This document shows positions 14,551 through 18,878 of a stretch of 64,000 nucleotides of DNA, in pieces. The position numbers and the translations under genes are program-made. Origin of the DNA: Pseudomonadaceae bacterium. GTDB lineage: Bacteria; Pseudomonadota; Gammaproteobacteria; Pseudomonadales; Azotimanducaceae. Below the pieces are notes generated by a model. It ran no database searches. It was not told the DNA's origin and saw only the letters and a list, made by a program, of their open reading frames with translations. Where the stretch lies: positions 1 to 64,000 of the forward strand of contig JANSWO010000010.1 in the NCBI GenBank assembly GCA_024743435.1, given 5' to 3'. Each line of letters begins with the position of its first letter. Position 1 is the first letter of the stretch.

Positions 14551-14655
14551 CGCCTGATCTCCATTGTCTGGACCGCCGATGGCCGTATGAAAGGCTTCAA
14601 TAGCGCACAATAACAACCCATGAGAGAGACCGGCAGCAACGACATACACGAAGCC

Positions 14656-15549
14656 ATGGCAGGCCACTCGAACTATGTGGGGCGATTTGCACCTTCGCCC
14701 AGCGGACCGCTACATCTGGGCTCCATGCTGGCTGCGCTCGCAAGTTACCTCGACGCAAAAGCCGCGGGTGGGCAATGGTTGGTTCGCATTGACGACATCG
14801 ATACGCCCCGCAATGTCGACGGGGCGGAAGAGGTAATCCTGCGTACCCTGGAAGCTCATGGCCTCTACTGGGATGGCGCCTTAACAAGGCAAAGTGAACG
14901 TCTCGATCAGTACGAGGCCGCCCTGGCAGAACTGGCGCAGAAGGGCTTGTTGTTCTGGTGCTCGTGCTCACGCAAATCGCTGAGGGGCAACATCTACCCC
15001 GGCAAGTGCAGACAACACACAGCCCACCGGGAAGACTGCGCCATCCGTCTGCGAACCCCACCCGGGGAGGTTAGGTGGCAGGAGCGAAGTGGCCAGGCGC
15101 ATAGTGAAAACGTCGAGAAAACCGTTGGCGACTATGTGCTCAAGCGTCGCGACGGCATATTTTCCTACCAGCTATGTGTGGTGGTTGACGATGCCGATAG
15201 CGGCATAAACCACATTGTGCGCGGTGATGATCTGCGGATTACCACTGGACGCCAGATACAACTCACCCGACTACTCGGCTACCCGGAGGCCACCTATCTG
15301 CATATCCCCACCATCAACAGCCGATCCGGCCATAAACTGTCGAAGCAAACCTTTGCACCGGGTGTCGACACGCAAAATCCCAATCAGACACTCACAACGC
15401 TAATGCAGCTTCTCGGATTAGTGACTCCCACCAATGCTCTGCACCTGTCGATCGAGGAGCTGCTTCGAATCGCCATCGAACAGTGGCGTCTCGTCGCAAC
15501 CGAAGGCCGTTACCAGCCTACGGCAATCGAGAATTTTGTCGGGTTTTAG
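14656..15549 (+). CDS. gluQ: Glutamyl-Q tRNA(Asp) synthetase
   Basis: Glutamylates the queuosine base of tRNA-Asp; a truncated relative of GluRS lacking the anticodon-binding half. The class I signature GRFAPSPSGPLHLGS is near the start, a zinc site of the form C-x-C ... Y-xxx-C is visible (CSCSRK to YPGKC), and HKLSKQ is the KMSKS equivalent. I prefer the ATG at 14656 (297 residues) because family members begin just before GRFAPSPSG; an in-frame ATG at 14620 would add 12 residues. Confidence 0.94.
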   Translation: MAGHSNYVGRFAPSPSGPLHLGSMLAALASYLDAKAAGGQWLVRIDDIDTPRNVDGAEEVILRTLEAHGLYWDGALTRQSERLDQYEAALAELAQKGLLFWCSCSRKSLRGNIYPGKCRQHTAHREDCAIRLRTPPGEVRWQERSGQAHSENVEKTVGDYVLKRRDGIFSYQLCVVVDDADSGINHIVRGDDLRITTGRQIQLTRLLGYPEATYLHIPTINSRSGHKLSKQTFAPGVDTQNPNQTLTTLMQLLGLVTPTNALHLSIEELLRIAIEQWRLVATEGRYQPTAIENFVGF

Positions 15550-15637: not shown

Positions 15638-16903
15638 ATGCCGACCGCGTTGCTCACCCACTTCCCTTCAGCGGCCCAGGACAAGCTCGCAAGCTTGCTC
15701 AGCGGCTTCGGGCTGACGTGCGTGTTCAATCCAGCAGATGGCGCGATAGCGGAAGCGAACTTTGATCGCGCGGATCTTGTGATTGCGCATGTGAGCGCAG
15801 GCATTGGGAATCTACTTACGCTCGCTGGCAGCAAACCGGTTGTTTTCATCAACGAATCCGATTCGATACGCGATGCGGTCAATGCCATTCAGGCTGGTGC
15901 GGCAGACTACGTCGCGTGGGCTGATATCGAACAAGAGCTGGCGGAGGTAGTCGAGCGAGTTCTGGCTCGCAAATCGGCTGGCGAACTACTCGGAGACAGC
16001 GCTCCTATCGCTGAGCTAAGAGGGCAGCTCGACAAGGTCGCCAAAGCCGACGTGCCGGTTGTCGTGTGGGGCGAATCTGGCACCGGCAAGGAATTGCTTG
16101 CAAGCATTCTGCACGCGCGCAGCACGCGTTCGAGTGGACCACTGCTCTTCTACAACTGCGCAGCGGCATTGAGTGACTCAGTCGATGCAGACCTGTTCGG
16201 CTCCGACAATGATCCGGGCTTACTCGCACGGGCTCGGCAAGGCAGTCTGTTTCTCGATGAAGTGGCCGCACTGCCCGCCTTTGCCCAAGCCAGATTAGTC
16301 AGCGCGATCGATGCTCAGCCAGATCAGACCCGCATTATCGCGGGAGCCCGACGCGATCTACGCGATGCCCTGGAGGAAGAGACGCTAAGGGAAGATCTGT
16401 ACTTTCGGCTGTCGGTTGTGACGCTAGCTGTACCGCCACTACGAAACCGGGGCGACGATCTTATGACGCTGGCCCAGGATTACCTTGAGCGCACCTGCGA
16501 CCGCCTGCGAAAAGGCAAACTCCGCTTCAGTGCAGCGGCAATTGCCGACATGCAGCGCTACACATGGCCAGGCAACGTCAGAGAACTGGAAAACGCGATC
16601 GAACGAGCTGTCATTCTGGCAAGCAGCGATGAAATCGACACAGAATTGCTCGCCATTCGCTTGGCCCCGGATCCTAAGCCAACTACCACTGCCGAAGCGC
16701 CTCCCGCGGACTCAGATCGGGGAACCCTGGAGGACTACTTTGTTGCGTTCGTCAACGAGCACCAGGACACCATGACCGAGACCGAGATCGCCAAGTCTCT
16801 TGGCATCTCGAGAAAGAGCCTGTGGGAGCGCCGCCAACGGCTTAAAATCCCTCGCAAGAAGAGCCGCCAGACCGCCACAAGCAAGCCAGCCAAAAAATCC
16901 TAG
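15638..16903 (+). CDS. Degenerate CbrB-like bacterial enhancer-binding protein
   Basis: A 421-residue NtrC-type regulator with three parts: a receiver-like domain (1-110), an AAA+ domain (about 119-345) and a Fis-type helix-turn-helix at the end (TETEIAKSLGISRKSLWERR). Walker A GESGTGKE (145-152), Walker B SLFLDEV (203-209) and the LREDLYFRL arginine region are intact. The sigma-54 contact loop is missing: after LFG (186-188) the sequence goes through SDNDPGLLARARQG straight to Walker B, with no GAFTGA. The second pore loop is also short. In the receiver the phospho-acceptor aspartate is H51, the acidic pair is absent, and the lysine site reads AWAD. Its place next to gluQ and pcnB is that of CbrB in Pseudomonas, but no CbrA kinase is encoded. 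It likely binds DNA without sigma-54 activation. Confidence 0.9.
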   Translation: MPTALLTHFPSAAQDKLASLLSGFGLTCVFNPADGAIAEANFDRADLVIAHVSAGIGNLLTLAGSKPVVFINESDSIRDAVNAIQAGAADYVAWADIEQELAEVVERVLARKSAGELLGDSAPIAELRGQLDKVAKADVPVVVWGESGTGKELLASILHARSTRSSGPLLFYNCAAALSDSVDADLFGSDNDPGLLARARQGSLFLDEVAALPAFAQARLVSAIDAQPDQTRIIAGARRDLRDALEEETLREDLYFRLSVVTLAVPPLRNRGDDLMTLAQDYLERTCDRLRKGKLRFSAAAIADMQRYTWPGNVRELENAIERAVILASSDEIDTELLAIRLAPDPKPTTTAEAPPADSDRGTLEDYFVAFVNEHQDTMTETEIAKSLGISRKSLWERRQRLKIPRKKSRQTATSKPAKKS

Positions 16904-17372
16904 CCGGTTGACAGCGCTGGCTAGCTCGGGTTTATTGGCTCTCGTGTCGAGCCCGTGAGAACGGCGCTTCTAGCAACTGACACCGATTGATTCGCACACA
17001 ACGCGAAGGATAGCCGCAGCCGGACCATCGAGAGCTGCTGATCAAAGCCCTTCCGGATCATTCAAGCGCGCCCGTTACAACGGCGCTGACTCAGTAGCCC
17101 GAAAAGATAAGCTGACACACGCTGTTTCAAACGCGATGCCTGAGGTCGGAAATGATCTCGGCACAAACAGCGCCGTTGCCCCGTTTGCGAGTGACATATT
17201 CACCCAGACGCAGGGCACGCAACAGAAACCATGGAAACTATGGGTTCAGAGTAAAGTGCCAGAGTAAGTCCTCAACTCCGAGGGTTTGTGGGCGCTCTTC
17301 TCTGGCACTTTACTCTGACACCGCACTCTCGTATTTAGGAGACAACATGACTGACTACGCCAGATATCAGTT
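16904..17372 (+). other. Intergenic region at the position of crcZ
   Basis: The gap between the CbrB-like gene and pcnB. In Pseudomonas this position holds the CrcZ small RNA. Here I see no TGGCAC-N5-TTGC sigma-54 promoter and no series of AAnAAnAA motifs. Contents: a 10-bp inverted repeat AACGGCGCTG / CAGCGCCGTT (17079-17088 and 17168-17177), the 19-bp perfect inverted repeat described separately, and a short leader ORF. An RNA gene of another kind is possible but unsupported. Confidence 0.6.
17246..17318. repeat. 19-bp perfect inverted repeat (REP/RAYT-like)
   Basis: TCAGAGTAAAGTGCCAGAG at 17246-17264 is perfectly inverted at 17300-17318, with a 35-bp loop. The words resemble the short palindromic sequences that accompany REP-associated Y1 transposases in Gammaproteobacteria, from memory; no transposase gene is present. 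It may be a leftover of such an element or a large RNA stem upstream of pcnB. Confidence 0.65.
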
Positions 17373-17376
17373 ATGA
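17347..17376 (+). CDS. 9-residue leader peptide overlapping pcnB
   Basis: A short ORF, MTDYARYQL, begins at an ATG preceded by a clear AGGAG (17337-17341) at 5 bases spacing and stops with TGA at 17374-17376. That stop overlaps the pcnB ATG as ATGA. pcnB itself has no ribosome-binding site (TATCAGTT precedes its ATG), so translation of pcnB probably depends on ribosomes finishing this ORF. A longer frame from 17152 to the same stop is open but would span the inverted repeat and has no recognisable protein. Confidence 0.55.
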   Translation: MTDYARYQL

Positions 17377-18878
17377 CCACCAGTTCGACACATGACACTC
17401 TGATTCTCGCGGCCGATGAGCACGGAATAGAAGAAGACCTCGTTTGCGACAACGCAACCTCAGTCGTACGCGGCCTGCAGGAAGCCGGCTACGAGGCCTA
17501 CCTCGTCGGTGGCTGTGTTCGAGATCTGCTTCTCGGCGCAAAGCCAAAAGACTTCGACGTTGCAACCAACGCAACGCCGGAAGATGTTCACAAGCTCTTT
17601 CGTCGTGCACGGATGATTGGCCGGCGTTTTCGGATCGCGCATGTCCGATTTGGACGCGATGTCATCGAAGTGTCGACGTTCCGAAAACACCACGAAGAAG
17701 AGGATGATCTCGACTATCAGACGTCCGCCCGCAGCGAAGACGGCCTTGTGCTTCGCGACAACTTCTACGGCACGCTGGAAGATGACGTCTTTCGTCGAGA
17801 CTTCACCGTCAACGCGCTCTACTACGATCCGATAACCCAGGAACTGCACGACTACGCAGGCGGCTTGGAAGATCTCAAAGCCAAGAGACTGCGCCTGATC
17901 GGAAAGCCAGCGGCGCGCTTCCGCGAAGACCCGGTAAGAATTCTGCGAGCCGTTCGCTTCACCGCTAAGCTCGGTTTTACGCCAGATCAGGAGCTGCTCG
18001 ATGCGATTCCCGATATCGCGGAGCTTCTGACCGCCATCCCTCCCGCAAGGCTATTTGATGAAGTCGCAAAGCTGCTGCTGCACGGCTGGGCGGAAAAGAC
18101 CTGGGAAATCATGACCGAGCTGGAGCTCGCGTACATACTCTTCCCCACCACTCGCCCAGAGAGCGATCTTATTGCGGCAGCCATGCGCAACACCGATCGT
18201 CGCGTTGCGGAAGACAAGCCCGTTACGCCAGGCTTCCTGCTCGCGGTAATCCTCTGGGAAGACTATCAAGCCCGAGTAGGTGAGTTGATTCTCAGCCAGA
18301 ATATGCAGGTTGCGGAACAGCGCGCCGGAGATCAGTGCGTTGCCGAGCAAAACCTTACCGTGGCTATTCCGCGCCGCTTTGCTCAGTTCATAAAGGAGAC
18401 CTGGAGCCTGCAGCCACGATTGGAAAAACGCGGCGGCAAAGGTGTTCAGAAGCTTCTCCGTCACCCTCGCTTTCGCGCAGCCTATGATTTTCTCGCCCTT
18501 CGAGCCGAATGCGGCGTGATCGAAGAAGACATCGTTAAGTACTGGACCGACATTCAACTGGAGTATCCGGTTGAGTCACGTCCGGAAGAATCAGATGACG
18601 GCGAAGAGACGGCTGACGGCGAAACGAAACGCAAACGTCCAGGCCGAGGCCGCGGCAGACGCCGCTCCGGCGGCCCGCGCAAGGCCGATGGCAACACTGG
18701 TGACAGCGGCAACTCTGGCAACAGCTCCGGTAACAGCGCCAGCAATGGCCGCGGCGCGAGCACATCAGACAAAGACGGCGAAGCCCGCAAGCCAAAACGA
18801 CGTCGCCGGCGCCGTCGTAAGCCAGCCGCTGCAGGTGGCGCGCAAGGTCAGGCATCCGGCTCGGCCAGCAACGACTAG
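17373..18878 (+). CDS. pcnB: Poly(A) polymerase I
   Basis: Adds poly(A) tails that expose RNA to exonucleases. The 501-residue protein has the class II nucleotidyltransferase head (GG at 46-47, catalytic DFD at 60-62, followed by VATNATPE), which is the PcnB rather than the CCA-adding form, then the RNA-binding arm domain to about 400. The C-terminal 95 residues are low complexity: an acidic stretch, an arginine/glycine-rich block, a Gly/Ser/Asn-rich run and a polybasic KPKRRRRRRRK segment. It starts within the ATGA overlap of a leader ORF and leads the group dNK-panB-panC-pgi-acs. Confidence 0.95.
   Translation: MTTSSTHDTLILAADEHGIEEDLVCDNATSVVRGLQEAGYEAYLVGGCVRDLLLGAKPKDFDVATNATPEDVHKLFRRARMIGRRFRIAHVRFGRDVIEVSTFRKHHEEEDDLDYQTSARSEDGLVLRDNFYGTLEDDVFRRDFTVNALYYDPITQELHDYAGGLEDLKAKRLRLIGKPAARFREDPVRILRAVRFTAKLGFTPDQELLDAIPDIAELLTAIPPARLFDEVAKLLLHGWAEKTWEIMTELELAYILFPTTRPESDLIAAAMRNTDRRVAEDKPVTPGFLLAVILWEDYQARVGELILSQNMQVAEQRAGDQCVAEQNLTVAIPRRFAQFIKETWSLQPRLEKRGGKGVQKLLRHPRFRAAYDFLALRAECGVIEEDIVKYWTDIQLEYPVESRPEESDDGEETADGETKRKRPGRGRGRRRSGGPRKADGNTGDSGNSGNSSGNSASNGRGASTSDKDGEARKPKRRRRRRRKPAAAGGAQGQASGSASND

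Follow-up and report, generated by a model that had tools for sequence, protein, structure and literature searches.

A crcZ position without crcZ and a degenerate CbrB in an Azotimanducaceae genome

The gluQ-pcnB interval

In related bacteria, a small RNA governing which foods are used is encoded at the CrcZ position. We analysed this position in a 64,000-nt stretch of Azotimanducaceae DNA (the window), where the genes and features around it are as follows.

14620..15549, + strand: gluQ, tRNA glutamyl-Q(34) synthetase (NCBIfam GluQRS equivalogs over cut-off)
15638..16903, + strand: degenerate CbrB, 421 aa (Pfam; alignment with relatives' CbrB; same gluQ-pcnB place as in relatives)
16904..17372, no strand: gap at the crcZ position, without crcZ, 469 nt (motif and covariance scans)
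16948..17087, + strand: local 21-nt direct repeat, copies at 16948-16968 and 17067-17087, 86% alike
17246..17318, no strand: REPIN-type hairpin with 19-nt perfect arms at 17246-17264 and 17300-17318
17347..17376, + strand: nine-codon ORF behind AGGAGA, its stop overlapping the pcnB start (ATGA), read from sequence
17373..18878, + strand: pcnB, poly(A) polymerase (NCBIfam TIGR01942 over cut-off)

The regulator gene lies 91 nt from gluQ, and cbrA is not between them. A first-pass annotation had described a gap of about 470 bp at the crcZ position that lacked the marks of CrcZ, held inverted repeats and adjoined a degenerate regulator, and all three descriptions hold. The gap matches no Rfam family at threshold, and a permissive scan of 901 nt returned just three eukaryotic families at chance level (E 1.3-2). 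It contains no sigma-54 box of the crcZ type, no CbrB subsite (TGTTAC/GTAACA), not one AANAANAA Hfq motif, and neither a sigma-70-like promoter nor a forward terminator. Paired CbrB sites are absent from the whole 64-kb window and nearly absent from 0.86 Mb of the genome (up to 1 mismatch, usual spacing). The covariance search of the gap with the Rfam CrcZ model, proposed in the annotation, gave no match, as its loss reading requires.

The perfect inverted repeats are the 19-nt arms of the hairpin and an 11-nt pair (17078-17088/17168-17178), the latter reflecting a part of the second copy of the 21-nt repeat that recurs inverted at 17168-17178. With the hairpin set aside, the weaker repeats of the gap still exceed those of shuffled sequences (0 of 150 as good for direct repeats, 1 of 150 for inverted ones). 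The 21-nt repeat was also considered as a genome-wide repeat family, which found no support: it occurs at 4 places in 0.86 Mb at up to 2 mismatches, two of them the gap itself, compared to 3 for a reversed control. At the other end of the gap, the nine-codon ORF has a good ribosome site, as read from its letters, and its overlap with pcnB makes translational coupling to that gene possible.

According to Pfam and an alignment with relatives, the window's CbrB consists of a pseudo-receiver, an AAA+ domain with Walker A and B motifs, and a conserved C-terminal HTH. The GAFTGA sigma-54 loop is missing, and so is the receiver aspartate at its usual place, while no CbrA is present as a partner. The protein is nevertheless a CbrB by descent, having both the gluQ-pcnB place and a CbrB-type HTH, whose segment at residues 378-406 is 76-79% identical to that of Pseudomonadaceae CbrB.

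The rest of the genome was searched for the other members of the circuit. There was no cbrA match at E 1e-30 in the whole genome, and Crc, which the annotation had suggested looking for together with hfq, is absent: within the exonuclease III superfamily, nothing belonging to the Crc clade was found, and the best match to the query (35%, 1.5e-33) lies outside this clade, being an exonuclease III whose catalytic motifs are intact. The same query matched the Pseudomonas Crc in the PDB at 5e-165. Both rpoN and hfq are present. Among the genomes searched, CbrA matches below 1e-200 were obtained in 23 of 56 (7 of 36 in Azotimanducaceae and 16 of 20 outside), and Crc matches below 1e-55 in 16 of the 20 outside the family and in 2 of the 36 inside it (G022 and G026).

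Six Azotimanducaceae loci carry cbrA and an intact cbrB in genomes where we found no Crc-grade match (L217, L234, L246, L233, L245 and L209, from G001, G007, G024, G033, G019 and G029, respectively), and four of these genomes (G001, G007, G024 and G033) also have A-rich CrcZ-like gaps. Judging by gene content, the circuit in these six genomes may be running on Hfq alone. At L234, a group II intron match lies at the contig end (8063-8157), beside the cbrA-cbrB locus.

Coupled losses at cbrB loci

A search of 200 Azotimanducaceae genomes listed 138 with CbrB-grade matches (1.6e-110 or better). About 60 of the 200 have no such match whatever, showing that complete loss also occurs. We compared 165 loci: the window itself, 134 of the 138, 26 regions taken from other families and five named loci (L068-L072, the five useful ones among 80 matches listed), minus one region without a cbrB match (L307). 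Left out were three Azotimanducaceae genomes with partial cbrB matches (G285, G292 and G335); the regions outside the family are a non-exhaustive selection, from which G046, G048 and G054 were left out. The gap is measurable in all but 15 of the 165 loci, and gap counts cover the remaining 150. Sigma-54 boxes were called with a filter of our own making.

Outside Azotimanducaceae, GAFTGA is present in all 30 loci, cbrA is adjacent in 28 of the 30, and a box is found in 23 of the 26 with a measurable gap. Inside the family (n = 135), 16 loci have GAFTGA and an adjacent cbrA, 28 have GAFTGA without it, and 91 have neither. Loss of the CbrAB-CrcZ switch is consequently not special to the window genome, but is common to most Azotimanducaceae that still have a cbrB-like gene.

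We found that the loop of the protein and the promoter beside it tend to be lost together. Over the 150 loci, 54 have both GAFTGA and a box, 11 have GAFTGA only, 1 has a box only and 84 have neither, so that the box is missing in 84 of the 85 GAFTGA-less loci; a Fisher value for this coupling is no fair probability, as the loci are kin by descent. Wherever cbrA is adjacent and the gap is measurable, GAFTGA is present (38 of 38). With GAFTGA the gap has a median length of 566 nt, and without it 50 nt; a four-base overlap with pcnB is seen in 12 of the 85 GAFTGA-less genes.

The signals within the gaps follow the same division. Of the 64 intact gaps longer than 200 nt, 54 have a box, where shuffling gives a mean of 2.1. 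The AANAANAA motif is observed 508 times where cbrA is adjacent (65.7 in shuffled sequences), 122 times in intact loci without adjacent cbrA (19.0) and 6 times in nine GAFTGA-less gaps (3.4). In the 15,975 nt before the box of 57 intact loci, the P. putida subsite TGTTAC is seen 142 times, ranking first of 120 letter permutations (mean 8.7), compared to twice in the 8,940 nt of 72 GAFTGA-less gaps (rank 68 of 120). Full F-R pairs of CbrB sites are found in 20 of the 57 intact loci and in none of the GAFTGA-less gaps. Across 23 other families, the box, the CbrB subsites and the A-rich motifs are found in this same setting. We also tried ancestral CbrB sites close to the degenerate genes as a candidate and set them aside; we make no claim of them, because TGTTAC ranks 68 of 120 permutations in the gaps and 5 of 120 upstream.

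The GAFTGA-bearing loci without a box by our filter are L158, L221, L230, L240, L241, L248, L251, L272, L285, L295 and L297. In L272 a near match fails the filter at its first base. Five others (L230, L240, L241, L248 and L251) have GAFSGA instead of GAFTGA; their gaps are A-rich, the filter finds no TGGC-type box in them, and the promoter of this group may differ. The GAFTGA-less loci with gaps longer than 200 nt are the window, L159, L237, L250, L254, L263, L267, L278 and L279; in L278, a match resembling the box lies 1013 nt from cbrB. One genus includes members (L193, L205, L210 and L213) whose gluQ and degenerate cbrB are separated by 1.3-1.7 kb, enough to fit another gene.

The GAFTGA-less proteins have changed unevenly along their length. 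Their mean pairwise identity is 0.314 in the receiver, compared to 0.491 in the intact set, and 0.864 in the HTH, compared to 0.737 among the intact proteins, a set drawn from more families. In the GAFTGA-less proteins, Walker A and B mostly survive (0.815 and 0.816). At the position of the receiver aspartate, 65 of 74 intact and 25 of 91 GAFTGA-less proteins have D, and none of the nine intact proteins without it has an adjacent cbrA. Structure predictions for six sequences were poor for the AAA+ domain (mean pLDDT 57) and better for the receiver-like part and the HTH.

These measurements bear on whether the regulator is a decaying pseudogene without function. The loss of the receiver and AAA+ loops, together with the total disappearance of a CbrB-grade match from so many genomes of the family, is what decay would produce, but the reading frame is open in the window genome and in nearly all others, the HTH is better conserved than in the intact set, although that set spans more families, and the Walker motifs are mostly kept; we consider a pseudogene unlikely. 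From the conserved HTH, we infer instead that the degenerate CbrB has kept a DNA-binding role that is independent of phosphorylation and sigma-54.

The hairpin in the gap

The 19-nt arm of the hairpin occurs at seven exact places in the genome, two of which are in the gap, while the same pattern read backwards occurs nowhere in it. Two further paired (solo) copies lie on contig C1, and the sequence just outside their arms differs from that around the gap hairpin. On contig C3, a gene for a Y1-type transposase is flanked by one exact copy of the arm and one with a single mismatch; among NCBIfam models it scores best with the REP-associated tyrosine transposase, without reaching the cut-off (69.7 vs 80). 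The genome thus has both a recurring inverted REP doublet and a RAYT with the same REP flanks, and by these sequence features the hairpin at 17246-17318 is a RAYT-linked REPIN, probably a mobile-DNA passenger in the spacer. As such, it is uninformative on carbon control. A second RAYT-like gene (L024) lies on contig C1 near 703.6 kb.

The REPIN-RAYT arrangement is described in PMC3116915. The window's hairpin resembles it in having two inverted arms, a short spacer and the same arms beside a RAYT in the same genome. It differs in its few copies (three paired, the RAYT flanks and single arms) and in a RAYT under the NCBIfam cut-off.

The annotation had called the crcZ position empty or replaced, and a replacement would be a different small RNA built on the inverted repeats. 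The whole gap does fold better than its dinucleotide shuffles (z -4.3), and its local repeats beat nearly all shuffles. However, when the gap was refolded without the REPIN, which is a dispersed repeat, the signal fell to z -1.3, with 9 of 100 shuffles as good, and a new structured RNA was rejected as a candidate. The missing promoter and terminator also speak against such an RNA, as does the comparison with every other gap examined, where no similarity beyond chance was found. We therefore regard replacement by another RNA as very improbable, and 'empty' fits better. Taken by itself, the gap is ordinary, a position that has lost its small RNA and carries a REPIN.

Loss of the circuit and comparison with known systems

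CrcZ-like RNAs extend beyond Pseudomonas. Of 194 genomes of the order, 41 have a match to the Rfam CrcZ family (RF01675) with E no higher than 0.001, and 9 of these exceed the gathering score; none of the 41 is in Azotimanducaceae. Inside this family there are weak matches to the CrcZ 3' end, though seven loci that have GAFTGA and lack cbrA gave none. Fifteen aligned crcZ-like tails have in common A-rich repeats, a short ATGGGG element and a terminator-like stem. A model built from them (R1) was applied to the window plus a choice of 46 loci. Of these 47 sources, 18 gave a match with E no higher than 0.01 and 25 with E no higher than 1; as 4 of the 15 training rows come from Azotimanducaceae, a match in a close relative is not a fully independent one. 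On the window gap, with filters off, R1 found nothing above 1.3 bits.

Two papers (PMC6296734 and PMC8871633) state that CbrAB is exclusive to Pseudomonadaceae, and a search of open-licence papers, including PMC8312277 and PMC5295007, yielded no description of a CrcZ/CbrB locus in other families. A window lineage that never had the circuit, with an orphan regulator unrelated to CbrB next to the gap, would agree with this limit, but is very improbable, given the adjacent cbrA and intact cbrB at 16 of 135 Azotimanducaceae loci, the crcZ-like tails in family members and the same promoter setting in so many other families. CbrAB with CrcZ-like RNAs is now extended well past Pseudomonadaceae, the limit given in reviews.

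On a tree of gluQ and pcnB (149 of the 165 loci; weak backbone), Azotimanducaceae is not monophyletic, and the window's sister is G030 (support 0.967), which likewise lacks GAFTGA. Dollo counting on this two-gene tree, with its weak backbone, gives at least 4 losses of GAFTGA and 6 losses of adjacent cbrA. Some loci look like intermediate states: G022 has GAFTGA and a box without cbrA or the A-rich motif, and G004 has GAFTGA and a short gap without a box. A possible half-way state is L254 (G355), where GAFTGA is lost and a crcZ-like tail (45.8 bits) is kept downstream, with six AANAANAA motifs.

Based on this evidence, the CbrAB-CrcZ-Crc circuit has probably been dismantled in the window genome, the gap being the former place of crcZ and the leftover CbrB a DNA-binding protein. 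The absences are shown by sequence, while the complete circuit is taken as ancestral because it is spread over the order. An ancestor would have carried crcZ in the gap that now lacks it, and its lineage would have lost the genes cbrA and crc, the RNA along with its CbrB sites and sigma-54 promoter, and, from CbrB itself, both the receiver aspartate and the GAFTGA loop. The remaining CbrB, its gene between gluQ and pcnB and its DNA-reading end strongly conserved, would act at sigma-70 promoters, by analogy with some GAFTGA-less NtrC-type proteins. The REPIN would have come into the spacer as a passenger. Several observations weigh on the other side: no target was found for the degenerate CbrB; paired CbrB sites are nearly absent from the 0.86 Mb; the 11 boxless GAFTGA loci and nine long GAFTGA-less gaps depart from the coupling; the tree's backbone is weak; and the sister's gap, also long (684 nt), has no detectable similarity to the window gap, including the other 340 nt of spacer. 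The annotation had suggested loss or rewiring of the switch. Loss stands, since CbrA and Crc are absent and neither Rfam CrcZ nor R1 matches, whereas rewiring rests on the conserved HTH.

A broader account, which we put forward tentatively, is that CbrAB-CrcZ was ancestral to the whole order and was dismantled several times, with CbrB surviving each time as a phosphorylation- and sigma-54-independent regulator in a gluQ-pcnB operon, often overlapping pcnB and keeping the ancestral recognition segment. What is of interest is this repeated, coupled loss around the gap with a retained DNA reader, a variant of a known system. It offers a natural series in which a global switch is being dismantled, its kinase, small RNA, promoter and sigma-54 loop gone and its DNA-binding end staying. 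A role of CbrB apart from CrcZ, and which step goes first, thereby become testable.

Compared to the CbrAB-CrcZ-Hfq/Crc system of Pseudomonas and Azotobacter, the window lacks cbrA, crc, crcZ, the sigma-54 box, the CbrB subsite, GAFTGA and the receiver aspartate; it shares the order gluQ, cbrB homologue, pcnB and the closely similar HTH. GAFTGA-less NtrC-type proteins acting at sigma-70 have precedents, including VspR, in PMC10274813. Those proteins retain the phospho-receiver aspartate, whereas the window's CbrB has neither aspartate nor kinase. Like NtrC of Rhodobacter capsulatus and Caulobacter and VspR of Vibrio cholerae, as described there, it is an AAA+ regulator minus the sigma-54 loop that has kept its DNA-binding end.
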